Shown here piece by piece: positions 22,485 through 63,682 of a stretch of 64,000 nt of DNA. A program made the position numbers and the translations under genes. The DNA is taken from the NCBI GenBank assembly GCA_029582155.1, contig CM055899.1, positions 74,084,886 through 74,148,885 on the forward strand, written 5' to 3'. Numbering within the stretch: position 1 is the stretch's first letter; each line of letters opens with the position of its first letter. This DNA is from Panopea generosa (lineage: Eukaryota > Mollusca > Bivalvia > Adapedonta > Hiatellidae). A model generated the notes under the pieces. The model was not told the DNA's origin. It saw only the letters and a program-made list of their open reading frames with translations, and did no database searches.

Positions 22485-25400
22485 TAATGTTGGCATGGGA
22501 AATGCATGTACAAGGTACACGAGTTGTGCAAAGAAACCCGAGTATTTTTCAAGGGGTAACATATGGGCCGGGAAGAAAAGCTATTTAACTACATTTCGTC
22601 AAAATCGCTGCACAGTCAATGAACTGAATGTGTGCACATCTTCAAACGAATCGTTGACGGCCTTCCAATTGAGCCAGAGTAAAAGGCTCGGTGTATCTGA
22701 GCTCGGGAAAGCATGAACAAGATACATGAGTTAAGCAATAAACTTAAGTATTTTCCAACGACCGACAGTTGCGACGGAATGGAAAACCAGTTAAGTATAT
22801 TTTGTCAAAATCGCTGCCCAGCCAATGCACTAAACGTAAGCACATCTTCACAACACTCGTCAACGGCCAGGGTGAAAAACTGGGTATCTCTGTGCTCGAG
22901 AAAGAATGTACAAGATACAAGAGTTGTACAATGAAACCAAAGTATTTTTCAACGGCCGGCAATTGAGGGTCTTCTCATTGAGCCACTTCGTCAAAATCGC
23001 AGCCAAACCAATGCACTGAACGTGTGCTCGGCTACAAACGACTCGTTGACGGCCTTCTAATTGAGCGAGCGTTATAAACTTGATGTCTCTGAGTCTGGAA
23101 TTGCATGTAGAAGACACATAAGTTGAACAATAAAACCCAAGTATTTTCCGACGGCTGGCAGGTGCGACGGAATGAAAAGTCAGTTCACTACCTTTCGTCA
23201 AAATCGCTGTCCAGCCAATGCACTGAATCTGTGCACAGCTATAAACGACTTGTTGACAGATTTTTTAATTGAGCCAGAGTTAAAAACATGGTGTCTGTGA
23301 GTCTGGAATTGCATGTAAAACACACATATTTTGTGCAATGAAATTCAAGTATTTTTAACGGCCGGCATTAGCGACAGAACGGAAAGCCAGTTTACTAAAT
23401 TTCGTCAAAATCGCTGCCCAGCCAATGCACTGAACGTGTGCATATCTTCACAATACTCACTGACGGCCTTTTAGATGAGCGAGAGTTATAAACCTGGTGT
23501 CTCTGAGCTGAAAATGGTCTGTAGTAGATACAAGAGTTGTGCAATTAAACCCAAGTATTTAGCAAGGGGTGGCATTTGGGCCGGGAAGAGAAGCCATCTT
23601 TTCGCTATATTTCGTTTAAATCGCTTCCAAGCCAATGCACTGAACGTGTGCACATTTTCACAAGATTCGTTGACGGCCTTCTAGACAAGCGGGAATTAAA
23701 ATATTGATATCTCTGAGCTGGAAATGGTATCTTGTAAATACAAAAGTTGTGCAATGAAATCCAAGTATTTGCCAAGGGGTTGAATTTGGGCCGGGAAGAG
23801 AAGCCATCTTTTCGCTATATTTCGTCAAAATCGCTGCCAAGCCAATGCTTGTACACATGAACGTGTGCACATGTTCATAAGACTCGTTGACGGCCTTTTA
23901 GTTGAGATAGAGTAAATAACTTGATGTTTCTAAGCAGTATATTGTCTATAGAAGATACCTGACTTGTGCACTGGAACCAAAGTATTTGCTAAAGGGTAAT
24001 ATTTGGGCCTGGAATAGAAGGAAGAAGAGCAGGAGATGGTCTGTAAATGATACCTGATTTGTGCATTGAACCCAACTTTTTGCAACGGGATCACATTTGG
24101 GTCTGTTATAAAAGCCATGTTTTCGCTACATTTTGTCAAAATCGCTGCCCAGCCAATGCACTGAACGTATGCACATCTTCACAAGACAAGTAAATGGCCT
24201 TCTAGACGAGCAAGAGTTAAAACATTTGGTGTATATGAGCTGGAAATGGTCTCAAGTAGATACCTAATATGTGCATTGAAACCCAAGTATTTGCCGAGAA
24301 GTGGCATTTTGGCCTTGAAGAGAAACCATCTTTTCGCTACATTTCGTCATCACTGAACGTGTGCACATGTTCACAAGACTCGTTAATGCCCTTCTAGATG
24401 AGAAAAAGTAAAAAATTTGGTGTTTCTGAGCAGGAGATGCTCCGTAGAAGATACCTCAGCTGTGCATTGAAACCCAAGTATTTGTTTTGCCAAGGGGTGA
24501 TATTTGGGCAGGGAAGAGAAGACATGTTTTCGCTACATTTCGTCAAATTCACAGCCAAGCCAATGCACTGAACGTATGCACATGTTTTGAAGACTCGTTG
24601 GCGGTCTTTTATATGAGACAGAGTCAAATATTTGGTAAATTTGGGCCGGGAAGAGGAGCCATGTTTTCGCTACATTTCGGCAAAATCGGCGCCCTGCCAA
24701 TGCACTGAACATGTGCACATGTTCACAAGACTCGTTGACGGCCTTCTAGATAAGACAGAGTAAAACATTTGGTATTTCTAAGCAGGAGATGGTCTGTAAA
24801 AGATTCCCGCGTTGTGCATTGAAAACCAAGTATTTGCCAAGGGTTGACATTTGGGCTGGGAAGAGAAACCATGTTTTCGCTACATTTCGTCGAAATCGCT
24901 GCCCAGCCAATGCACTGAACGTGTGCACATGTTCACAAGACTCGTTGAAGGCCTTCTCAATAAGAAAGAGTAAAAAAATGTGTTTCTGAGCAAGAGATAA
25001 TCTGAAAAAGATATCTGAGTTGTTTATTGCAACCCTAGCATTTGTCAAAGGGTAACATTTGGGCCGGCAATAGAAGCCATGTTTTCGCTTTCGCTGCCCG
25101 GCCATTGCACTGAACGTGTGAACATGTTCACAAGACTCGTCGACGGTTTTTGAGATAAGACAGAGTAAAAAAATTGGTGTTTCGAGAAGGAGGTGATCTG
25201 TAGAAAATACCTAAGTTGAGCATTGAAACCCTAGTATTTGCCAAGGGGTGACATTTGGGCCGGGAATAGTAGTCATGTTTTCGCTACATGTCGGCCAAGC
25301 CAATGCACTGAACGTGTGCACATGTTCGCAAGACTCGTTGACGGCCTTCTAGATGAGACAAAGTAATAAACTTAGTGTTTCTGATTAAGAAATGGTGTGT

Positions 25401-26735
25401 TGAAGATACCTTATTTGTGTATTAAAACCGAAGTATTTTTCAAGGCGTTACATTTGGGCCGGGAAAAGAAGCTATGTTTTCGCTACATTTCGTCAAAATC
25501 GCCACCCAGCTAATGCACTGAATGTGTGCATATGTTCACAAGACTAGTTGACGGCCTTTTAGATGAGATAGAGTAAAAAACTTAATGTTTCTAAGCACGA
25601 CATGGTCTGTAAAAGATACCTAAGTTGTGCATTGAAACTCAAGAACTTGCCAAATTGTGACATATTTGCCGGGAAGAGAGGCCAGGCTTTCGCTACATTC
25701 CGTCGAAATCACTGCCCAGCCAATGCACTGAACGTGTGCACATGTTCACAAGACTAGTTAACGGCCTTCTAGATAAGATAGAGTACAATACTTGGTGTTT
25801 CTAAGCAGGAGATGGTCTGTAAAAGATTCCCGCGTTGAGTATTTGGGCCGGGAATAGAAGTCATATTTTCGCTACATTTCGTAAAAATCGCTGCCTAGAC
25901 AATTCACTGAACGTGTGCACATGGTCACAAGTTTAGTTGACGCCCTTCTAAACGAGACAGAGTCCAAAAGTTGGTGTTTCGGATTAGGAGTTGGTCTGTA
26001 GAAGATACCTGAGTTGTGCACTAAAACAAAATAAATTGCGAAGTTGTGACATTTGGGCCGGGAAGAGAAACCATGTTTTCGCTACATTTCGTCAAATGTG
26101 CACATGTTAACTGGACGGCATTCTAGATGAAACAGAGTAAAGAAACTTGGTGTTTCTGATTAGGAGATGGTCTGTAGAAGATACCTTGTTTGTGCATTAA
26201 AGTATTTGCCAAGGCGTGACATTTGGGCCGGGAATAGGAGCCATGTTTTCGCTACATTTCGTCAAAATGGCTGCCCAGCCAATGCACTGAACGTGTACAC
26301 ATGTTCACAAGTCTGGTTGACGGCCTTCTAGATAAGACAGAGTAAAACACTTGTTTTTTTCCTAGCAAGAAATGGTCTGTAGAAGATACGTGAGTTGTGT
26401 ATTGTAACCGAAGTATTTGCTAAGGGTGTCATTTGGGCCTCGAAGAGAAACAATGTTTCCGCTCCAGTTTGTAAAAAGTCACTGCCCAGCAAGTGCACTG
26501 AACGTGTGCACATGTTCAGAAGACACGTTGATAGCCTTCTCAATAAGATAGAGTAAAACACTTGGTGTTTCTGGGCAGGAGATGGTCTGTAGAATATACC
26601 TGAGTTGTACATTGAAACCCAAATATTTGCCAAGAGTTGACATTTGGGCCGGGAAGAGAAGCCATGTTTCCGCTCCAGTTCGTAAAAAATCGCTGCCCAG
26701 CCAATGCACCGAATGTTTGCACATGTTCACTAGAT
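22485..26735. repeat. Satellite array, unit about 205 bp, about 20 copies
   Basis: The landmarks TTTCGTCAAAATCGCTGCCCA, CCAATGCACTGAACGTGTGC, CAAGACTCGTTGACGGCCTT, GAGTTGTGCA and CATTTGGGCCGGGAAGAG recur in fixed order about every 200-210 bases. Right-hand copies (24.8-26.7 kb) are more alike than left-hand ones, and some units are shortened (for example near 25840 and 26090). Every ORF in this span, on both strands, is a shadow of the repeat and has no coding meaning. Confidence 0.93.
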
Positions 26736-35537: not shown

Positions 35538-38500
35538 ATGTATAAAGAGTTTCACAGACACGAATCCAGAATGAATTTAACACAGGCTCCAAAATATCAG
35601 CCAGATGAGGTGGCAGCCGTGTCGCTTTTACAGTATCTAAATATGGAAGAACTTGAGGACTACATGAACAACCCAGACAAAATAGATATACATGTGTCTG
35701 ACCTTCAGCAGGTAAATTAACAAATAGAAACAGTTTATAAGAAAATGATAACAGCAGATTACCACTTCACTTGATTACAGCAGATTACCACTTCACTTGA
35801 TTACAGCAGATTTCCACTTCACTTTATAACAGAAGATAACAAATTCACTTGATAACAGCATGTAACCACTTCACTTGATAACAGATAACCATTTCCCTTG
35901 ATATCAGTAGAATACCACTTAGTAATAACAGGTTACCACTTCACTTGATAACAGCAGATTAACACTTTACTTGATTACGGCATATTACAACTTCAATTGA
36001 TTAAAGCAGATTAAACTTCCCTTGATATCAGTAGATTACGGCTTTACTTGATTATAGCAGATTACCACTTCACTTGATTACAGCAGATTACCATTTCTCT
36101 TGATATCAGTGGATTACCACTTCACTTGGTTATAACAGATTATCACATCACTAGATAACAGCAGATTACCATGTCATTTGATAAAAACAGATTACCACTT
36201 CACTTGATTACAGCAGATTACCACTTCACTTGATTACAGTAGATTACAATTTCACTTGATAACAGCAAATTATCATGTCATTTGATAACAACAGATCACT
36301 ACTTCACTTGATTACAGCATATTACCACTTCACTTGATTACAACAGATTTACAACTTCACTTGATTACAGCAGATTGACACTTCACTTGATTATAACAGA
36401 TTGACACTTCACTTGATAATAGCAAGTTTGTTTGGGCATTGGTGATTGATTCGTTTAAGCTACGGCAATGCTTATGTAAAAGTTATGGCACCAAGGCACA
36501 TTACTGAATTTCATATACATATTTGGCAGAATTCATGACCATTATCATTGCTAGTAATCAAAAGTGGTCCTTCACCAAGATACATGATTTACATACAGTT
36601 CTGCTGAACCAGATATATATGATAATCAACTCTGAATACTGCATAAATCTTGTGTCTTGTCTAATTGGTTGTGTGTTTTTTCATAGGTCAAAGGTATACA
36701 GCGTGATCGAGAAAACATAACTATTAAGAACAGAAGTTTGGCTGAGTACAACATTGGGCTACAACCAAAGTTTGAATCTTTGAAACGTGAAGTTGCTACC
36801 AACTATGAAAGCGTGAATGCACTGAAAATGTCACTAGGAAAAGACGTAGCAAAACTAGGTGAATCTGTCAGACAGTTTTCTTCCATAGTTGAAATAAATC
36901 CTACACTGATGTGTATCTTTTATTATGTTGAATACAGATTAAAGTAGTTATTTGTTCTGCTATTTTAACAACCCGCTTGAGAGTCGGTAGGTGAATACAG
37001 GACTTACTGTGTCAGTCAGCAACCCGCTTGAAAGTGGGTAGGTGAATACAGGACATACTGTGTCAGTCAGCAACCCACCCTCCATTTTGGATTAATATCT
37101 TCAGTACCTGCCATTATGGAGTAATAACTTTAATAGCCTATTTGCGGCAATCTCAATGGTAGTGGTGTAAAGAAAAGGATGTTTGGCACTCATGCCAGAG
37201 GTTGTGGGTTTGATTCAGACTCGAACAACGGCCTCAAAAAGACAACATACAGTATTGGCTCTTTCCCTGTACAGATACTTACAGCACCATTAAGTGATCT
37301 AAATTTCATGCTATCAATGGAAATCTTTTTGTAGATGCTATGATATAAGAAAAATATATTTGTTCAACTACCTTCACTACTTTTGTTACAATATTTGTTG
37401 TTCTATTTCAGAATCATGCACAGGGCGACAGTCAAATGACACAATGTTAGCCATATTTCAGACTGAGGCTGCAACTGCTGATGAGCAATCAGAGGTAATG
37501 TTCCATGATTTCAGAAACGTTTTCATATCATCAAAGTTAAATCTGAAAATAAATCTAATATATTACCCTTCCTGATATGATCAATGATTGACTAATTGAT
37601 TGAATATTTATCATCGAGCACACCACATCTTGCAAGACACTGATTACTTTCACACTTGAATTAGTGGTGGGAGACGAATGCTTTTGAGACGCAATGTCAT
37701 ATATCAATCATCAGGGAGACTATGGCCGAGTGGGGATTCAAACTCAAGACCCCTGGATTGATAGTCGGTTAATATGATCAAGAATTTAATGTCCAGGAAA
37801 TTCTGTTACATCTTAAATAAACATTATCTTTTATACATTCCCCTAAAATTTATATTAAACTATACCATAATTAATGAAGCTAATTCCAGCACCTTCAAAA
37901 GAAGACACCAAGCCATCTGTGAGGTAACAAAATTTCCTTGACAGTGAATTCTTGATCATATTGCATTAAAGGTTAATTACTTTACGGCTTGCAGACAGTG
38001 TTCTGATAATTGAAAGGTTGCTGTGTGTATTCTGTTTTACTTTTTATTTTCATTATGTGTTTGTAAAAATGATGTAATATTATCATTTTAAGGCGTTGTC
38101 AGTCGGTTAAAGTTTTATGTATACCTCAGCTTTTTCTCTGTTTCTCAGCATATTACTTAAGGTATTGAGTCTAAACTTTATAAAAACATTCATATCATGT
38201 TATACAAACAATGTTTAGAGCTAAGTTACCAAAATTTCCATATTTTGGGCTCTTAAACCTTAGGTTAAAGTTTTTTGTTTAGCTTGTGTTTGATTAATTT
38301 ATTGATTTTTTACAGTAATATATATATTGATTCAATAAACTAATCACCATCATATTAAAGACGTTTACATTACTGACGTTTGCCAACATAATGGACATTA
38401 AAAAGACGAGTGTAGAGAGTTATTTTTTAGGGGAAATTCAAAAATATATAATTATAGTCATGTGTAGAGAGTTATTGTTTAGGGGATATTCAAAAATATA

Positions 38501-41152
38501 TAATTATAGTTATGTGTAGAGAGTTATTGTTTAAAGGAAATTAATAAATATATAATAAGTCGTGTGTAGAGAGTTATTGTTTAGGGGATATTGAAAAATA
38601 TATAATAATAGTCATGTGTAAAGAGTTATTGTTTAGGGGATATTGAAAAATATATAATTATAGTTATGTGTAGAGAGTTATTGTTTAGGGGATATTCAAA
38701 AATATATAATAATAGTTATGTGTAGAGAGTTATTGTTTAGGGGATATTCAAAAATATATAATTATAATCATGTGTAGAGAGTTATTGTTTAGGGGAAATT
38801 AATAAATATATAATTATAACCATGTGTAGAGAGTTATTGTTTAGGGGAAATTAATAAATATATAATTATAATCATGTGTAGAAAGTTATTGTTTAGGGGA
38901 TATTCAAAAATATATAATAATAGTCATGTGTAGAGAGTTATTGTTTAGGGGATATTCAAAAATATATAATTATAGTTATGTGTAGAGAGTTATTGTTTAG
39001 GGGAAATTAATAAATATATAATTATAATCATGTGTAGAGAGTTATTGTTTAGGGGATATTCAAAAATATATAATTATAGTTATGTGTAGAGAGTTATTGT
39101 TTAGGGGAAATTAATAAATATATAATTATAATCATGTGTAGAGAGTTATTGTTTAGGGGATATTCAAAAATATATAATAATAGTCATGTGTAGAGAGTTA
39201 TTGTTTAGGGGATATTCAAAAATATATAATAATAGTCATGTGTAGTGAGTTATTGTTTAGGGGATATTCAATAATATGTAATTATTTAATTTATGTACCA
39301 TTTGAATGAATATACAAACCTATCTGTTTCTTATATTTTTTTCGTTGTTTTTTTTCATCTCAAGATCATTTACCTCTCATTGCTAAGGTCGTTGGTTTGC
39401 GCTCTGCTTGGTCAAAAATTTTATGTGAGAAAGTTTGCCAGTTACTTGCGGAAGAAAGGTGGTTCTACTCAGATATATTCTTAGGTCTTCCTCTACCAAT
39501 AAAAACTTGATATGCCATATACCGTATATATAACTTGAAATGTGTTGAAAATGGTGTAAACCCCATTGTTTTCATTCACACATTGTCTGACCTGTTTGTT
39601 ATACAATGAAAGCTTTATTACCAATCTGCAATATCATATTGTTTGCTCATTTAAGATAACTAAGACTAGAAATGTGTCAATAGAACATGGAGTACACACC
39701 ATATGTTTGTAATTTTATGAAACATTCAGTAAAAAGGAGACCATAACTACATGTACTTTGAAATTTTCCCGACATTGACAAATATCAGACTTGACCTGTA
39801 TTAGAGAAACATACAGGTGCCCACAAAGTAGTTATTAGATACCAACCTTTTCAGAAGTTATTCCTCAGAAACATATTTGCTGGACGAATGACAGGGGTAA
39901 CACTTGATGTCCTTTCACCATTCTTCATATGGCTTAGGCCGTAATAAATTAATTGCTAGATTATCATCCCTGCCCACCCCCTAATTTTCATGCCGCCCCG
40001 ACCCTTTTTATTTTCATAAAAAACATCAAACAATTTTAAAAATAAAAAATAAAATTCTCCCGCCCTCCCTGTTTTTAGATAAAGTTGGAATTATAATCTA
40101 GCAATTAATTTATATTCAATTGTTTCAACGGTTAGAACTATTGTTCATTTAACAAGATATATAAGACAGAATTCTGTTTGAAAATAAATGTCCGACCTGG
40201 AAAATTGTCCTTATTGTATTCAATCGTTTTATGTATGTTTATCTTTATCATTAATTATTTTATTCAGAATTGTTTCAGTACAAAATTAACATACTAGAAT
40301 TCAATGGTTTTACTGATGCTGGTTTCAGCAAAGAACTTGTGTAGAAGGATAGGAAACTTACATCTCCTGACTAAACAATAATATACAGTACTTGAATGAT
40401 TAATTTTTTGGTAAATAAATAATTCAGAATTCAGAGGCAACTGATTTCTCATACGTAAAATGTGAGTTGCATACAACCTAAATGTTTTATGTTTTGATCG
40501 TGCAAAATGATCTTGAATTAAAAACATTACAGTTCAAGTCATCTTGTTGTTTGTCAAGTTACAGGAGACAAATTTTGTCATCATTGGTATTTCAATCATT
40601 TTTAACATTATTTACTGGGAATGGTCTTGTTATATGGAGTATTTCATTTTGTAAAGTAATAATTTGAATTTTTATTTCTGAGATGAATGGAAGTTTTTGA
40701 AATTGAAATTGAAAATGCGATTTCGCGAGATTTTGCGTGAATATACAAGCGTTAACAAAATTTCGATAGTAGCCCTTTCCTTCTTTACAATTTCTTTGTT
40801 TCAGTTAAATGAACGTTTATAAGTATCTTTACCATATATTTCTTTTCTTTTTTCACAGCAATTGGCAGATGACTTTTGTGAAAATAAAGTTGATATTGAC
40901 GTTTTCATCAGTGACTATATTACAAAACGTACAGAGGCATATATAAAAAAATCTAAAATAGACAAACTAGCTGAGCTACTGCGACACGGAGGAGGCGGGT
41001 CTGGAGCACCCTACCCTTCATCTTCAGTTCCACCTAGTAGTCCTCACAGTAATGTAGGCGGTATTGGATACAGCCCTTCTGTGGCGTATGGTGGTGCTCC
41101 ATACCCAACCTCGCAATATGGAGGGATGCCAACGCTGAATTACCCTAGATGA
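35538..41152 (+). CDS. VPS37: VPS37, ESCRT-I complex subunit (VPS37B/C/D type)
   Basis: Four coding exons: 35538-35711, 36687-36858, 37412-37494 and 40859-41152 (TGA), giving 240 residues. Junctions are GT..AG, with phases 0, 1 and 0. The Mod(r) domain that docks into the ESCRT-I core spans about residues 26-182. It includes SLLQYLNMEELEDYM, then NRSLAEYNIGLQPKFESLK and DDFCENKVDIDVFISDYITK. The tail (about 185-240) is rich in Gly, Pro, Tyr and Ser, as in VPS37B/C. ESCRT-I acts with TSG101, VPS28 and MVB12/UBAP1 at endosomes to sort ubiquitinated membrane proteins into intralumenal vesicles. The ATG at 35538 is chosen because an in-frame TAA lies at 35505-35507 within the same exon, whose acceptor is at 35475; an upstream non-coding exon is therefore likely. 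Length is close to vertebrate VPS37B/D. Introns 1 and 3 contain minisatellites. Which vertebrate paralogue it matches best cannot be decided by eye. Confidence 0.93.
35744..36424. repeat. 26-bp minisatellite in VPS37 intron 1, about 26 copies
   Basis: Unit TTGATTACAGCAGATTACCA followed by CTTCAC, repeated head to tail with many substitutions and a few short units. It fills about two thirds of the intron. Confidence 0.92.
36966..37077. repeat. 51-bp direct duplication in VPS37 intron 2
   Basis: AACCCGCTTGA(G/A)AGT(C/G)GG, then TAGGTGAATACAGGAC and TACTGTGTCAGTCAGC occur twice in tandem, with the start of a third copy (CAACCCACC). Confidence 0.85.
37141..37330 (+). repeat. tRNA-derived SINE, family A, in VPS37 intron 2
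   Basis: GTAGTGGTGTAAAGAA and TTTGGCACTCATGCCAGAGGT with GTGGGTTTGATTC give a decayed tRNA head as in the other family A copies. Confidence 0.55.
37620..37775 (-). repeat. tRNA-derived SINE, family C (minus strand), in VPS37 intron 3
   Basis: Reads as the reverse complement of the 62.2-kb copy: GGTGGGAGACGAATG, GACGCAATGTCATATATCAA, ACTATGGCCGAGTGGGGATT and CCTGGATTGATAGTCGG. It is truncated relative to that copy. Confidence 0.7.
38403..39285. repeat. 52-bp minisatellite in VPS37 intron 3, about 17 copies
   Basis: Unit TGTGTAGAGAGTTATTGTTT + AGGGGATATTCAAAAATATA + TAATTATAGTTA. Two variants (GATATTCAAAAA and GAAATTAATAAA) alternate irregularly, which points to mixing by unequal exchange. 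Copies are very alike, so the array is young. Confidence 0.95.
39350..39580 (+). repeat. SINE family B copy in VPS37 intron 3
   Basis: The 5' head is partly lost (CTCAAGATCATTTACCTCTC remains). The core GCCAGTTACTTGCGGAAG and tail AACTTGAAATGTGTTGAAAA with TGGTGTAAACCCC are clear. Confidence 0.75.
39944..40113. mobile_element. MITE-like element with inverted termini, in VPS37 intron 3
   Basis: Ends ATAAATTAATTGCTAGA and its reverse complement TCTAGCAATTAATTTAT, an inverted terminal repeat of about 17 bp. The interior is 170 bp of C/T- and A-rich sequence without coding capacity. A related copy lies at 53225-53393. Confidence 0.7.
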
Positions 41153-43969: not shown

Positions 43970-44720
43970 AGGGAAAATCGCTGTAAATATCTAGGGAAAA
44001 AAGGGTATTTTTATAACTGACACTAATGATCTCATTAGCATAAGTTAATTTAATAAGTTGATCAGAGTGGTGATATTGAAACAAAATTCCCGTTCTAAGA
44101 AAAGATATCAGGCAAAAACTGCTAAACATTTACCTTGTCATTCAGGCTCTTTCTAATATATTACATAACAATATAGGTGATCGGTAAACAATATAGGTGA
44201 TCAGTAAACAATATAGGTGATTAGTAAACAATATAGGTGATCAGTAAATGATATAGGTGAGCAGTAAACGATAAAGGTGATCAGTAAACGATATAAATTA
44301 TCAGTAAACGATATAGGTGATCAGTAAACAATATAGGTGATCAGTAAAAAATATAGGTGATCAGTAAATGATATAGGTGAGCAGTAAACGATAAAGGTGA
44401 TCAGTAAACAATATAGGTGATCAGTAAACAATACAGGTGATCAGTAAACAATATAGATGGCCAGTAAACGATAAAGGTGATCAGTAAATGATATAGGTGA
44501 TCAGTAAACGATATAGGTGATCAGTAAATGATATAGGTGATCAGTTAACAATATAGGTGATCAGTAAACAATATAGGTGACCAGTAAACAATGTAGGTGA
44601 TCAAATCACAATAAACTCATATTATGTTACTTGTTAGATACATTACAACAGACTGCAATTTTAAGCAGGAAATCTACTTTAATCCAACCTGGGCACCAAG
44701 GTCAAGTTAGGAATCATTAT
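43970..44720. repeat. Dispersed repeat, copy 2 of 3, split by a minisatellite
   Basis: The left part (AAAATTCCCGTTCTAAGAAA, CATTCAGGCTCTTTC) and right part (GCAATTTTAAGCAGGAAATC, CAACCTGGGCACCAAGGTCA) match consecutive portions of the 49-kb copy. The 20-bp tandem array lies between them. Confidence 0.6.
44168..44607. repeat. 20-bp minisatellite, about 22 copies
   Basis: Unit ATATAGGTGATCAGTAAACA with variants (aatg, aacg, gagc). Nearly every unit contains GATC, mostly within TGATCA. Confidence 0.95.
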
Positions 44721-46085: not shown

Positions 46086-46959
46086 ACACAAAAAATGGTA
46101 CCAGTACATTTCATGTTGCTTGTAAAACATTAAACGATTAATTTTGCAAATATTTTAGCAACATATAGTCAGGAGTTCCTGTTCTTTTCTATGTTAGTCC
46201 TTGGTATAGATAAATAATACTGAAATTAAGAGACCTTAATTATGTATCTCTTTTTATTGTTGTGAATTTACATGTGTCACACAGTTATGTAATATTGGCT
46301 TAATGATCTTTTTTTTTATTCAAATACTGAATTAAAATCAATGTACCAGTATTTTATAAATGTGTTTTTGTTTATTTGCTGCCTACAAATTGATATACTA
46401 GTAAACATGTTCATATATTTCTATCATCTTTTATTAAACCTATTTGATTCATTTAAAGAATTTAATATTTAATATCTGTGAAGCCAAATGAGTTGATACA
46501 GCAACTGTTTTTTATTGAGAAATGAAGTGCAGTTGGTCAAACTCGTTTGTATAGAGCAACTGAAGTTAAACCTCAAATTTGACTTAATTAATTAACCCAC
46601 TTTCAGCATGTCTGTCTGTCTGTAGACAAACACATGGTTGCAACTCCTTTCTTGCTGCACAGATATCTTTCAAAGTTTCCATTGTTGTTGCTGATATTGT
46701 GCACACAAGATCGAGATCTGTAGTTCATACATGTTGGTTTTAAAAAAAAAGGTATTATATAAGTATGTACATGTAAAAAATAATACATGTAATAATTGAG
46801 TCTGGTCTGTAACTACGTCATTCTGAAATAGTCTGGCAAAAATAATCTCCATAAAGTCATGATTGTCTCATGCATGACCCAGCTCTGTAGCTCTATGGTG
46901 AAGGTCAAACAATTTCTGAAAACTAAACAATTAGGCTGCAGCGTGTATTAAAACGTGTC

Positions 46960-48030
46960 CTGTGGTGATGAGCCCAGTACAAGCTGTTACTATTCTGTCC
47001 CGTGGTGACGAGCCCAGTACAAGCTGTTACTATTCTGTCCCATGGTGATGAGCCCAGTACAAACTGTTACTATTCTGTCCCATGGTGATGAGCCCAGTAC
47101 AAGCTGGTACTATTCTGTCCCATGGTGACGAGCCCAGTACAAGCTGGTACTATTCTGTCCCATGGTGACGAGTCAAGTAGAAGCTGTTACTATTCTGTCC
47201 CATGGTGATGAGTCCAGCACAAGCTGTTTCTATTCTGTCTCATGGTGATGAGCCCAGTACAAGCTGTTACTATTCTGTCACATGGTGACGAGCCCAGTAC
47301 AAGCTGTTACTATTCTGTCACATGGTGATGAGCCCAGTACAAGCTGGTACTATTCTGTCCCATGGTGATGAGCACAGTTCAAGCTGGTACTATTCTGTCC
47401 GGTGGTGATGAGCCCAGTACAAGCTGTTACTATTCAGTCCCGTGGTGACAAGCCCAGTACAAGCTGTTACTATTCTGTCCCATGGTGACGAGCCCAGTAC
47501 AAGCTGTAACTATTCTGTCCAATGGTGACAAGCCCAGTACAAGCTGGTACTATTCTGTCCCATGGTGACGAGCCCAGTACAAACTGTTACTATTCTGTCC
47601 CATGGTGATGAGCCCAGTACAAGCTGGTACTATTCTGTCCCATGGTGACGAGCCCAGTACAAGCTGGTACTATTCTGTCCCATGGTGACGAGCCAAGTAG
47701 AAGCTGTTACTATTCTGTCCCATGGTGATGAGTCCAGCACAAGCTGTTTCTATTCTGTCCCATGGTGATGAGCCCAGTACAAGCTGTTACTATTCTGTCA
47801 CATGGTGACGAGCCCAGTACAAGCTGGTACTATTCTGTCACATGGTGATGAGCCCAGTACAAGCTGGTACTATTCTGTCCCATGGTGATGAGCACAGTTC
47901 AAGCTGGTACTATTCTGTCCCATGGTGATGAGCCCAGTACAATGTTACTATTCTGTCCAATGGTGATGAGCCCAGTACAAGCTGTTACTATTCTGTCCCA
48001 TGGTTATGAGCCCAGTACAAGCTGGTACTA
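46960..48030. repeat. 40-bp minisatellite with a 520-bp higher-order period
   Basis: Unit AAGCTGTTACTATTCTGTCC + CATGGTGATGAGCCCAGTAC, about 27 copies. Diagnostic variants recur exactly 13 units apart: the CAAGTAG variant at about 47170 and 47690, and AGCACAGTTC at about 47371 and 47891. A block of 13 units was therefore duplicated as one piece. ORFs in it are spurious. Confidence 0.95.
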
Positions 48031-48171
48031 TTTGTATAATCTGTTATTACAATATCCTTCCTGTGCGTGGAAAGATGATTGGTAAGCTTTGTTGTTGAAC
48101 ATAGAAGTGCACAAAGTTTTAAGGAATGTTTACCCAGCTTACACTACAAATACAAGCCACAACTGTGATAG

Positions 48172-51759: not shown

Positions 51760-53165
51760 AGGTAGCGATGTATCCATGAATATCAAGTCTTGGACTGATG
51801 TTTCAGACCAGACACGAAATTTCATGTTTTTTTTTTAACATTAAAATGTAACCTTGACCTTTGTGTAACCTTGACTTCAACATCTCATGTTAAGGTCTGG
51901 GTATTTCTACAGATAAATGGAGGTGAAACATCATCATGACATGTTGATCACTTGTGTCAAGCTATTTTAAATTCCCTCCATATAAAACAAAGTTTCAGAC
52001 CAGACATGAAATATCAAACAAACTAAATGTGTCACCTTGACCTTTGAGGTAAAGTTCTAGATCTTAACACACTTTGTAATGCCATGTTGATAAATTGAGC
52101 CAAATGTTTTTGAAATCCATCCATGTATGATAAAGTAAAAGACCGAACTTGAATTCTCAAACAGACTCAAAGTGTTTTTCGAACAAATTCAAAATGTGAC
52201 ATTGACCTTGAGGTATTGGTCTGGATCAATTAAGCTAAGTTTAAGACAAAGTTATAGCCCAGACACAAAATATCAAACAAATTGAAAGTGTGACCTTGAC
52301 CTTTAAGTAAAGGTTCTGGGTCTTACATGCGACACTTCATCATGTCATGTTGATCAACTGAGCCAAGTGTTTTTGAAATTTATCCATAGGTGATAAAGTT
52401 ACAGACTGGACACAAAATCTCAAACAGACTGAAAGTGTTGTCAAACAAAGTTAAATTATGACCTTGACCTTTGAAGTGGGAGTCTGAGTGTTACACGCGA
52501 AAACATTGTCATGTTATGTTGATCATTTGTAGCAAGTACTTATAAAATCCATTTATGCATGACAAAGATACAGGCCAGACATGAAATCTCACACAGACTC
52601 AAAGTGTTGTCAAACAAACCCAAAGTGTGACCTTTACCTTTGAGGTATGTATGGGTGTGGGTGTTATGCACGACACATCGTCATGTCATGGTGATGAATT
52701 GAGCCAAGTGGTTTAAAAATTTATCCATAAGTGACAAAGTTACAGACCTGACATAAAATCCCAAACAGACAAAGTGTTGTCAAACAGAGTTAAACTTTGA
52801 CCTTTACCTTTGAAGTGGGAGTCTGGGTGTTACGCGCGACATGTTGTCATGTTATATTGATCAATTGTACCAAGTATTTATAAAATCCATCTATACATGA
52901 CAAAGTAACAGACCAGACACGAAATCTCACACAGACTCAAAAGTGTTGTCAAACAAACTCAGAGTGTAACCTTGACCTTTGAGGTACGGGTGTGGGTCTT
53001 ACTGGCGACAAGTCGTCATGTTATGTTGATCATTTGTAGCAAGTATTAACAAAATCCATCAATGCATGACAAAGTTACAGGCTGGACACGAAATACCGGA
53101 TGGAAGGACAGATGGACACTGCGATTACTATATACCATCCCATAAATTTTGGGGGGGCATTAAAA
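51760..53165. repeat. Degenerate repeat array with TGACCTTGACCTTTGAGGTA words
   Basis: GTGACCTTGACCTTTGAGGT, then GGTCTGGGTCTTAC, CGACAC(A/T)TCGTCATGTTATG, TTGATCA.TTG.(G/A)CCAAGT and GACAAAGTTACAGACCAGAC recurs about every 160-180 bases, roughly eight times. It ends GGACAGATGGACACTGCGAT, TACTATATACC and CATAAATTTTGGGGGGG. This is a dispersed repeat type I associate with bivalves. Confidence 0.75.
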
Positions 53166-58627: not shown

Positions 58628-58711
<84 letters not shown>

Positions 58712-61700
58712 AAGGAGAGTTATGATCATAGGATGCCTACTGAGGTGTTATGGGTCACTCTTATGGCAATAAAGGATAGTTCAACTAATTGAATGAAACG
58801 CTTGGTCTTCAAGATGTATGTTTGGACATGGTGAAATATTTGATGATTGACATCATCAGAAGAAGTGTCATTACAGTGTATTTAGGTCTGGACGAGTAAT
58901 AGGACGTCATAAAGTAGAGTTCATTGACGGTGGTATAAAGGGCATGTGAAGAGATAGTGATAAGTATCCTCAGTCTTTCATTTATTGCTAAAAAATATTT
59001 TTGAACAGATCTACAAAATTGTGCCTTAAGTTATGATTTGCCACTGAGATTGTATATTTCTGCGATCAGTATGTTACGTCACTGCAATGTTTGGGGTATA
59101 AATCACGTTTAGTGATAGGTCTGGTATATAAAGATTTGCATTGGTATTTATCTTTGGCTCAGTTTACTGTCATATATATATTTGTTTATTCCAGTTTTAC
59201 AATGAAAATGAGGCAAGAAAGTATACATCAAAGTAAGTAAACTGTCCTGCATTGGTTAGAGTTCTATAGCACCATAATGTTGTTGTGATACTGCTGCTTC
59301 ACATTGTTACAGATTAGGGAATAGTGTATATCAATTGGTTTATGGATGAACAACTTAATGGTAAGTTCACTGTGGTTTTAAGACTGTCATATTCGAGGGG
59401 TTATCCATAAGTTTGTGGACAAATTTAATAAAATCCATATTTATGCAAGTTCATCGCCGTATTTTGCTTTGCTTGAATATTGATATGTATAAAATTTGTT
59501 ATCAATATCTAATATTTTATTACATTTCTAACCTCAGCAATAATGTGATGGTATCCATCACAACATGCATACATCTTTAGGTCCACAGCTCAATATGTTG
59601 AACAATTTATCAGGTAAGCATATGAAGAATAACAATTGCTTGCCTGTAAAATTTGTGGTAAATCATATATTGTTGAGGACACATCATCAATGTCTGTAAA
59701 CGTCATTCCAGCAATAGCACTGTGTGCAAATGTTAGGAATTTAAACAAATTTACATTGAAAAGGAATATGTGCACATAAACAAAAATTGTGTATGAAGAA
59801 AAGGTGAAACAACAAGGGCTATACAGTTTTGTGTCAATATTACACTGATCCAGATGTTGGATGTTCTTGGTAAAGCTCCAAAAAGCCATCTGTTGCATGT
59901 TGAATCTCATATTGAATTTTATATTTTCTATTTGATGGCTTGTTTATGACTGATACACCTCCATAACTTGCATTATGCTGCAACCACGGGAAGGCTTTAA
60001 AACAAAAATGATTCTTGTTGTATTTGGAGGCAACTCTGAAAAGAGTTAAAGTTTAAATACATGTTGCTTAACATATTTGTTCATACACCAACACAGAAAC
60101 TTGATGCATTTCCTTGTAATTGCAAGTAAAAATGTGTTGGAATTTAAAACATTATATTTAGAGTGATCTGCATGCTATTAATATGCATAACAATCAACAA
60201 ACATGAATTACTTTGTCAACTGCTTTATTTATTTGATTATTTCTTATCCAGCACTCGCATGATTGAAATTCAAAGTCAACTCTCTGAGCGAGCTGTAGAG
60301 TTACTGGCCCTTCCTGAAGATACAGCATGTTTCATACTTGATGTTGGGTAAGTACTGACTCCTACTTGATGTTGAGTAAGTACTGACTCCTACTTTATGT
60401 AGGGTATGTGCTGATTCCTACTTGATGTTGGGTTAGTATTGACTCCTAATTGATGTTGGGTAAGTGCTGACTCAAGCTTGATGTTTGTTAAGTAATGACT
60501 CCTACTTTATGTAGGGTAAGTGCTGACTCCTGCTTGATGTTTGGTAAGTAATGACTCATACTTGATGTTTGGTAAGTAATGACTCCTACTTGATGCTGGG
60601 TAAGTACTGACTCATACTTGATGTTGGGTAAGTACTGACTCATACTTGATGTTCAGTAATTGCTGACTCCAACTTGATGTTGGAGCTTTACTTTGACTCC
60701 TACTTGATGTTTGGTAAGTACTGACTCATACTTGATGTTCAGTAATTACTGACTCCAACTTGATGTTGGAGCTTTACTTTGACTCCTACTTGATGTTTGG
60801 TAAGTGTTGACTCCTACTTGATGCTGGGTAATAAATAAATGAATGGTGCTTTACGGCACGTCGACACATAAATAGGTCATTTTGTGCGTGCAATGATGAT
60901 TGGTAAGTACTGATTCCTACTTGATGCTGGGTAAGTACTGACTCCTACTTGATGTTGGGTAAGTGCTGACTCCTACTTGATGTTGGGTAAGTACTGACTC
61001 CTGCTTGATGTTTGGTAAGTACTGACTCCTACTTGATGTTGGGTAAGTACTGACTCCTACTTGATGTTGGGTAAGTACTGACTCCTGCTTGATGCTGGGT
61101 TAGTAGTGCAGACTCATGCTTGATGTTAGGTAATTGCTGACTCCTACTTGATGTTGGGTAAGTGCTGATTCCTAGTTGATGCTTGGTAAGTGCTGACTCT
61201 TACTTGATGTTGGTAAGTGCTGACTCCTACGTGATGTTGGTAAGTGCAGACTCCTGCTTGATGCTGGGTAAGTACTGACTCCTACTTGATGTTGGATAAG
61301 TGCTGGCTCCTGCTTGATGTTGGGTAAGTGCTGACTCCTGCTTGATGTTAGTTAAGTGCTGACTCCTACTTGATGGTGGATGATTATTGACTCCTGCTTG
61401 ATGTTGAGTAAATATGCACACCTACTTTTTTGCTGCATGTTTCATACTTGATGCTTGAAGCAAACTACTTCTACAGTTTTCTGTTGATTGACTTGAAACT
61501 TTGCATACAGGATCAATGTCAAGTGTATATATGTTTGATTCATGTTTTGTGATACTGACTGAACTCCATGCAGAGTTATTGCCCTTGCACTTAGTAAAAG
61601 TGCTGTATTTACCATATTGCAATCTGAACTTTTTACACAGTTGTCAGCTGAATACATTGTTATTTTGTTTTATATATAGTAAACATGACTAATAGTAAAG

Positions 61701-63682
61701 GTTTTATTGAACCTATCATCGGGAAGCATTATTAAAAAGAAATATATATTTTCAACTGTAGGTGTGGTTCTGGTCTCAGTGGTGAAACTTTGACAGATCA
61801 GGGTCATTTCTGGGTAGGTGTTGATATCAGCCCACACATGCTTGGTGAGTATTACATGTTTGATAAATTTTTAACTTTAACATCAAGTGCACATTGTTTT
61901 CAATGCTGAAAATAAATTTTAGTAAATAGATTTCAATCAATAATCTAGTTTGTCTTCCCATTTTTTCTGCCATATGCAGAAACAGCCCTGCCTGCTCTGT
62001 AAGTTCTGAGTTTAAAGAGTCAAGGTTCAAGTGAATAGAGGGTTTGCTGCTCATGCCAGCAGTTGTGGGTTCGATCCCCAGCTTAACCTGATTCCTCTGG
62101 AAAAAAATTCAGTACAGATTCTACCCAGGAAGCAGTCTCGAGAAAGGTTCATATAAGCTTTGAACTTTCTGCTGGGCCCCCATTAGTTCAGTCGGTTTGG
62201 CGTCTGACTATCAATCCAGGGATCGTGAGTTTGAATCCCCACCCGGCAACAGTCTCCATGATGATTGATATACGACATTGTGTCTCATTATCATTCGTCT
62301 CTCACCAATTATTCAAGTGGGAAAGTTATCAATTACTTGCGGAGATGGAGTGTGCTTGAGTACTGGTTAATCCCAGGAAACAGTGGTTAGGTTAACTGAT
62401 CATCTGTTAGCCCTCGATGGGATAAAAATGACGCTAAATATTCAATTAATCAATCAATCAATCATTGAACTTTCATCACAATCAAGCTAAACTAAATTAG
62501 TATAAAAATAAGTATCAGGGTGACTGAGACTTGTTAATGATAAATTATTGTAAAACTGTAATGTTCAATTGGAATCTGTACATAAATCAAACTTGTTGTC
62601 ATTTAAAAATTGTCTGATTGAAATTTAACTGAATGTTGATTTTGAGATGCATCGTGTGAAGCTGAGGAGCAAACCCAGTCCTAGTGTGAGCAATCAACAC
62701 TATCTACTACACTACAACATAAACAAAATTCACAATGTGATTTTTCCAATTATTGTTCATGTGTATCAGATATGGAATTCATCCTTGGTTTAGATTGTAC
62801 AAATTCTTCAACTGAAATTTAACAATTGTTGATTTATTTTGTTTACTTTGCAGATGTAGCAGTGGAACGGGAGACAGAGGGAGACTTGGTGCTTGGGGAT
62901 ATGGGATATGGAATGCCATTCAAGTCCGGATCGTTTGATGGGGTTATCAGGTATTTTCTTCTTGCGTTTTGTAGTTGACATTCTTTTAGTTAATATTTTG
63001 CTTTCATTTATGAAAGATATTTTTAATTTACATGTCTGTTTTGTCCTTCCTTTGAGATAGTTCCCAGTAAAGAAAAACACAAATGTATTGACAACCAACC
63101 TTCAGCATAAAATTCAATTGAAAAGGAGTGCATGGTCCAGTAGTAGTGCATCAGACTCAGGATCAGAAGGTGGAAGGTTGTGGGTTCGATCCTCTAATAA
63201 GGCCATAAGTAGTTTCCTTGAGCAAGACACTTTATTTGTATATACTTTGTAATGATTCTACCGAGGAAGACTTTGAGTGTGATTTGTCTTAGTTGTAAGA
63301 ATTAGTTTCACAAACAATGTTGAATAAATAAGTTAACTAAAAGTACAAAAAATGTTCAAAATATAGTCAAACCCAGTCAAGAAAGGCGCAAATGTGTTGC
63401 TAAATACAGGTTAATTTGCTTTGAAAGCTTAGAAATGGAAATGAAAAAGAAAAAATAAATGTGATTGCTAAAGACAAGTGACTGCTTAATAGAGGTGACC
63501 CCTTACACAGGTTTGATTGTTTTGTGAGAATTAGTATGAAGATGCATTTATTGATGCTGTTCAAGTGAAGATAAATTATTTTCAGCATATCGGCCCTTCA
63601 GTGGCTGTGTAATGCAGACAAGAAGTACCATCATCCGCCGAAAAGATTATTAAAGTTCTTCTCCACACTCTATGCATGTTTG
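55281..63682 (+). CDS. BUD23: BUD23, 18S rRNA (guanine-N7) methyltransferase, 5' six exons (partial)
   Basis: Exons 55281-55322, 59195-59232, 60252-60347, 61762-61844, 62854-62950 and 63586-63682 join in phase and encode the first 151 residues; each is flanked by AG and GT, most donors being GTAAGT-like. The protein starts [29 protein letters not shown] follows, then SAM motif I as FILDVGCGSGLSG (residues 54-66), the acidic ribose-binding loop [11 protein letters not shown] (Asp80), [31 protein letters not shown] and [18 protein letters not shown]. These are hallmarks of BUD23/WBSCR22, which with TRMT112 methylates a conserved guanine N7 in 18S rRNA during small-subunit assembly. The last window exon ends in a good donor (gtaaga), so the remaining roughly 130 residues with the basic nuclear tail lie to the right. 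Intron 1 is 3.9 kb, and intron 3 contains an array of copies of this gene's own splice donor. Confidence 0.95.
55323..59194 (+). other. BUD23 intron 1
   Basis: A 3.9-kb intron without internal genes. A decayed tRNA-like piece on the minus strand (GGGATCGAACCA near 55533) and a GATA microsatellite are the only recognisable features; ORFs inside lack known motifs. Confidence 0.6.
58626..58710. repeat. (GATA)n microsatellite in BUD23 intron 1
   Basis: About 20 nearly perfect tandem AGAT units. Confidence 0.97.
60336..61453 (+). repeat. 28-bp minisatellite built from the BUD23 exon 3 / intron 3 junction
   Basis: The unit is CTTGATGTTGG|GTAAGT followed by ACTGACTCCTA, about 35 copies. The first unit is the real end of exon 3 (codons for LDVG) with its 5' splice site at 60348. 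At the far end, GCATGTTTCATACTTGATG (61435-61453) exactly repeats exon 3 bases 60325-60343. A piece of another repeat of about 70 bp interrupts the array at about 60829-60900. Confidence 0.93.
62030..62172 (+). repeat. tRNA-derived SINE, family A, in BUD23 intron 4
   Basis: GCTGCTCATGCCAGCAGTTG with GTGGGTTCGATCCCC (intact B-box), and 3' part CATATAAGCTTTGAACTTTC. Confidence 0.7.
62173..62465 (+). repeat. tRNA-derived SINE, family C, in BUD23 intron 4
   Basis: Head TTAGTTCAGTCGGTTTGGCG (A-box) and GTGAGTTTGAATCCCC (B-box). Core AAGTTATCAATTACTTGCGG, related to the family B core. Tail GGGATAAAAATGACGCTAAA and a (TCAA)n end at about 62440-62463. Directly joined to the family A copy. Confidence 0.8.
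63126..63315 (+). repeat. tRNA-derived SINE, family D, in BUD23 intron 5
   Basis: GAGTGCATGGTCCAGTAGTA (A-box), GTTGTGGGTTCGATCC (B-box), CCTTGAGCAAGACAC and GAAGACTTTGAGTGTGATTT. It is the reverse-complement layout of the 11.9- and 45.4-kb copies. Confidence 0.78.

Follow-up and report, generated by a model that had tools for sequence, protein, structure and literature searches.

A minisatellite spanning an exon-intron boundary of BUD23 in the bivalve Panopea generosa and its likeness to amphioxus mirages

Minisatellite-like duplications of exon-intron boundaries, termed mirages, have been described in the globin genes and Adh3 of amphioxus, where both 5' and 3' boundaries are affected, length is unstable and regular splicing was suggested by RT-PCR (PMC3087553). 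A further mirage was reported in amphioxus TnC, together with similar repeats in PGBD5 (PMC3902484), and a 31-bp VNTR named c.1444_1467+7(16_21) is present in human CBS (PMC2630376). Within the scope of our literature search, no boundary arrays besides those of amphioxus and CBS were recognised, and none in molluscs. Here we describe an array of this kind in a mollusc gene.

BUD23 and the array in its third intron

The window analysed comprises 64,000 nucleotides of Panopea generosa (G000:C6:74084886-74148885, from an assembly of 1.47 Gb in 39 contigs), and all positions follow its numbering. The original prediction had recognised BUD23 and assigned the array to its intron 3, and the protein matches and the exon structure bore this out. 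The gene has 11 exons from 55281 to 76543 in window-equivalent positions, the later ones lying past the window end (L010, L011), and its product of 280 amino acids matched Pfam WBS_methylT (3.1e-22) and, in PDB, the 18S rRNA (guanine-N7)-methyltransferase 6g4w (9.6e-117). The closest homologue among the matches listed (120 of 5,263 proteins) was that of Mercenaria mercenaria, with 89% identity. No second copy of BUD23 was found by whole-genome protein search, as all seven matches (nine candidates scored) fell in the same gene. Exon 3 (60252..60347, plus strand), which matched human BUD23 both by tblastn and in PDB, is preceded by an AG acceptor and followed by a GTAAGT donor at 60348..60353 (9-mer TGGGTAAGT), and its frame joins those of exons 2 and 4. 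The acceptor partner is exon 4 (61762..61844, plus strand), also supported by the frame join, so that intron 3 spans 60348-61761 (1,414 bases, GT..AG). The coding flanks of this intron are conserved and join normally in an intact host gene, as expected of a mirage.

Other features of the gene and the window were recorded alongside. Intron 10 (around window-equivalent 74707, L011) was set by hand as a GC-AG intron (AG|GCAAGT), a reading that restores a conserved REVR. Intron 9 contains a 65-bp array of 10.1 copies (window-equivalent 71258-71920) beginning 26 bases past exon 9, and a second one with a 38-bp unit and 66.6 copies (72056-74499); a perfect AGAT microsatellite of 20.8 copies occupies 58629-58711 in intron 1. 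Further tandem arrays, with units of about 20 to 390 bp, lie at 22987-26734, 35746-36424, 38410-39285, 44167-44603, 46956-48032 and 52273-53094.

TRF delimited the array of intron 3 at 60335-61427, with period 28, 39.2 copies, 77% matches and consensus TACTTGATGTTGGGTAAGTACTGACTCC; segmentation gave 37 units on the plus strand (60335..61422). As had been predicted, the unit is the exon 3/intron 3 junction itself: it joins the last 13 bases of exon 3 (..CTTGATGTTGG, 60335-60347) to the first 15 bases of the intron, starting with GTAAGT, and the first unit sits astride the donor. Four of the 37 units, including that one, are identical to the consensus. The tandem units thus span an exon-intron boundary, as in mirages, and hold an exon end and a donor within one unit, as in the boundary VNTR of CBS. 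GTAAGT occurs 23 times over the 37 units, so that many of them, not all, carry the splice signal. These 23 comprise the true donor and 22 decoys, of which 11 share its full 9-mer. The predicted count of about 35 copies was therefore fair for units, but not for donors, since only 22 decoys keep GTAAGT and 11 the whole 9-mer; that many intronic donors possess authentic exonic context was confirmed. The window contains 41 GTAAGT in total, 23 in 60325-61453 and 18 outside (0.29 per kb), and the density in intron 3 was 16.3 per kb vs. 0, 0.77, 0.99 and 1.96 per kb in four other introns.

A dispersed repeat of around 74 bp, with matches in at least 40 other genomic places, interrupts the array at about 60830..60903. 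Reverse-strand open frames over the array are probably a product of its 28-bp repeat, as 28 is not a multiple of three. At the far end, a 19-base stretch of exon 3 (60325-60343) reappears at 61435..61453 on the plus strand, where no further copies were found in the window. The original prediction was right that this copy is exact; its likeness to the unit stops there, the 30 bases that follow being no more similar than shuffled sequences (127 of 1000 shuffles scored as well), and the copy was rejected as the terminus of a longer founding unit. Its first 10 bases fall outside the repeat unit, and simple growth of a 28-bp unit does not explain it; a longer founding duplication or conversion may have been involved.

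Several observations bear on where the unit came from. The 13 exonic bases of the unit specify LDVG, a stretch of SAM motif I. When this BUD23 protein was aligned with 18 homologues chosen from the 120 listed, from coral to frog, L56, D57, G59 and C60-G66 were invariant in 19 of 19 proteins, whereas V58 varied. The exon therefore has its own reason for this sequence, which indicates that the exon seeded the array, in agreement with the proposal that the array had grown from the exon junction; the first unit, astride that junction, equals the consensus. The last 22 bases of exon 3, containing no intron base, reached a score of 16 with the BUD23 array; 11 other arrays gave 5-11. A better match of the unit to an unrelated satellite would have pointed the other way, and the search of this genome gave the opposite result: apart from its own locus, recovered in four pieces, a 486-bp array query found the array nowhere else save for one weak match in a different array (C4:1675732-1675855, E 1.5e-5). 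The 16-mer TTGATGTTGGGTAAGT, with at most one mismatch, was found in 86 genomic places (40 for the reversed word), of which the BUD23 array accounts for 20 and a stretch at C1:61.78 Mb for 16, the other 50 lying elsewhere. The C1 stretch, the one other rich place, was a 19-bp satellite otherwise unlike the BUD23 unit in the two pieces examined. At G000:C4:39946259-39946274 (L080), what appears by eye to be the exon end of another gene carries the same CTTGATGTTGGGTAAGT, and no array was present in 801 bases.

Decoy donors in intron 3

Agreement with the consensus was compared column by column in 29 units (31 of the 37 were free of indels relative to the consensus, and two of them were set aside because other events had disturbed them). 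It reached 0.937 in the GTAAGT columns, 0.912 in the exonic ones and 0.897 in the other intronic ones, and the GTAAGT window ranked 19th of 28 in rising order. Per-column identity thus revealed no selection for or against the decoys, GTAAGT being neither specially kept nor purged.

Of the 119 GT sites downstream of the donor in intron 3, 11 match the true donor in strength of U1 pairing (-9.8 kcal/mol), and all 11 lie within the array. In messages assembled in silico from exons 1-6, each of the 22 decoys gave a stop at codon 60, because GGG is followed in frame by the TAA within GTAAGT. Predicted accessibility did not single the true donor out: 16 of 22 decoys appeared at least as open, and the true donor was predicted to be less accessible than the four other BUD23 donors tested, so that RNA structure was rejected as a factor favouring it. 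Folding of a 171-nt stretch of the array was predicted to be more stable than that of shuffled sequences (z -2.39), 2 of 200 of which equalled it. Recursive splicing was also discarded, as none of the three AGGT in intron 3, two of which fall within the array region, showed a convincing pyrimidine tract on visual inspection. Competition between duplicated donors is common in model systems. Neither the sequence nor the predicted structure of this intron gives ground for the first donor winning. Presumably exon definition favours it: recognition of exon 3 as a unit would lead most transcripts to be spliced from the donor lying furthest upstream.

Arrays at other junctions of the genome

Three close MAGGTRAGT words were found 1,339 times, and the reversed word in the same arrangement 686 times. 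When the first 100 matches listed were sorted by hand, they fell into 29 groups in 221 Mb: seven of one dispersed family, two near-duplicates, one microsatellite and 19 others. The DNA on the 5' side was examined for all 19 of these, and 10 start where a likely exon meets its donor, one is founded on an acceptor and eight lack a clear exon (L058, L059, L061, L062, L066, L071, L072 and L075; the array of L061 exceeds the 3 kb examined).

The donor arrays follow exons matching an Ig domain (L057, 3e-10), ASH2 (L063, 1.3e-4), ABCE1 (L056/L068, 1.7e-13), a Snf2-type 'helicase-like protein', presumably Mot1/BTAF1 (L065/L070, 5e-18) and, weakly, WBP11 (L074, 0.0083), and in five cases putative exons identified by an open frame (L060, L064, L067, L076 and L077), that of L064 being presumably RAD54B-like. 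Short exon peptides of L064 and L060 gave no match in PDB, nor did L060, L063 and L064 in Pfam. The acceptor array (L073, G000:C2:12325133-12326632, minus strand) precedes an exon of an ACSM-type acyl-CoA synthetase (ACSM2A, 5.3e-9), and its units carry TGTCTATTGCAG plus the first exon bases.

Similar arrays, with a 27-bp unit resembling exon end plus donor, were noticed in the intron after an EF-hand exon (L017:5602-7565; G000:C4:1675602-1677565), and the weak match of the BUD23 array query at C4:1675732-1675855 corresponds to this boundary-like repeat. The exon (Pfam EF-hand_7, 5.7e-4, below the family cut-off) ends in ..ATGGCATTTGATGCACAAT|GTAAGTATT, the unit is TGAATGTCATTTGATGTAGGGTATGTA, and degenerate copies precede the regular array, which sets in some 190 bases from the 5' end of the intron.

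When the exon ends of BUD23, EF-hand and the ten donor cases were scored against their own arrays, 10 of 12 beat all 132 cross-comparisons (maximum 11), a partly circular test, since it was visual likeness that had led to the selection of the cases. The exon ends of ABCE1 (9) and the helicase (8), whose exonic parts are short, did not.

Origin of the array and its relation to known systems

All these factors taken together indicated that the BUD23 array is, with good probability, a neutral minisatellite of the mirage type that arose when the exon 3/intron 3 boundary was duplicated in tandem; the presence of the same anatomy at other junctions of the genome was counted in favour of the splice-junction minisatellite reading, as was the estimate that array density by itself would yield hundreds of such events. 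A 28-bp stretch across the donor would have been duplicated and would then have grown by slippage or unequal exchange; to judge from the anatomy, protein and splicing constraint would hold the exon copy, so that the array could grow only into the intron. Mutation and homogenisation acted evenly along the unit, as the column agreement shows. Any use of decoys would lead to the stop at codon 60 seen in silico, and the resulting transcripts would be prone to degradation. Counted against this explanation were the 11 decoys that equal the true donor in U1 pairing, the 16 of 22 predicted to be no less accessible than it, the competition common among duplicated donors of model systems and the exact far-end copy with its 10 bases beyond the unit. 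Nothing points to a functional role of the array, which is most likely a tolerated by-product of a minisatellite-rich genome and not an adaptation.

An unrelated satellite or mobile element might have landed beside exon 3, with the 19 bases as a target-site duplication or a chance likeness. The exact direct repeat flanking the array and the dispersed repeat within it would fit such an event, but the unit itself is the exon junction, the genome holds no other copy of the array, the sequence past the right-hand 19-base copy does not continue the exon junction and the dispersed repeat spans only about 74 bases; an insertion is thus hardly credible. It also appears very unlikely that splice donors are preferred founding sites of minisatellites, for example through a transcription- or R-loop-linked process. 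Single MAGGTRAGT words were about as common as reversed ones (60,007 vs. 57,547), although among the matches listed the donor word formed 29 groups in 221 Mb and the reversed one 27 in 467 Mb (p=0.0024). This difference faded, however, without the dispersed family (22 groups, p=0.066) and then also without the two near-duplicates and the microsatellite (19 groups, p=0.21). GTAAGT triples were not enriched but rarer than those of the reversed word (34,223 vs. 54,752), one repeat family and a C1 microsatellite dominating among the matches listed. Moreover, one array was founded on an acceptor (L073), the same junction sequence at C4:39946259 was not amplified, and random founding already predicts hundreds of cases: 363-606 donor-spanning arrays, for an assumed 150,000-250,000 donors and a density of about 9 arrays of at least 8 copies in 104 kb, which is biased upward because part of the 104 kb was chosen for its arrays. 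The ten donor cases would scale to around 67 genome-wide, for the strong donor word alone.

That the array regulates BUD23, its decoys diverting pre-mRNA into stop-containing, degraded messages so that length tunes output, or its units concentrating U1 locally, we regard as unlikely. The 22 decoys, 11 of them with an identical 9-mer, and the stop that every one of them produced in silico speak for it, and in human CBS, of the same anatomy, a study, to go by its title, reportedly links the VNTR to reduced CBS activity. On the other side, the donor columns are not specially conserved, and the roles that had been envisaged for the array (U1 sink, splicing buffer, donor slippage) found no support, given those columns, the truncation at codon 60 and the regular splicing by RT-PCR described for amphioxus genes of the same kind (PMC3087553, PMC3902484). 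In a broader version, hundreds of genes of this genome, including ones that act in translation (BUD23, ABCE1), would carry splice-junction minisatellites, some decoys would be used and array length would set the share of stop-containing message; this seems rather doubtful. If it were true, the arrays would be polymorphic, would adjust gene output according to their length and would give introns a way to grow.

Under the neutral boundary-duplication reading, the locus is of interest as a natural experiment and because such arrays recur in this genome, rather than for a new mechanism. The true donor and the 11 decoys with the same 9-mer form a natural duplicated-splice-site experiment, which asks what beyond the donor sequence marks the right site; as the genome holds several introns of this type, RNA data could be used to address it.

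The BUD23 array belongs, with mirages and the CBS VNTR, to a kind already described but little known. With the amphioxus mirages, as described in PMC3087553 and PMC3902484, it shares units that span an exon-intron boundary and of which many, not all, carry splice signals; in those of Adh3, BflGb6, BflGb9 and TnC, 5' and 3' boundaries are affected, as in this genome, and unit lengths overlap (10-72 bp in Adh3). It differs in its mollusc host and in its 37-39 units, vs. 3 or 6 in two BflGb6 haplotypes, and length instability and regular splicing are observations made in amphioxus, whereas the BUD23 array is known from the sequence of one assembly. The CBS VNTR likewise unites exon end and donor, by its name with 24 exonic and 7 intronic bases in 16-21 copies (PMC2630376), whereas the BUD23 unit has 13 exonic and 15 intronic bases, more copies and an unrelated host gene; the former is polymorphic in human and the latter was seen in one haplotype. 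A further parallel is intron gain through internal tandem duplication of splice sites, which PMC3087553 considers in connection with mirages; it too involves tandem copying of such sequence within a gene, but no new intron is evident in BUD23. Mirages are thereby extended from lancelets to a mollusc, which suggests that such arrays are to be expected as a matter of course where minisatellites abound.
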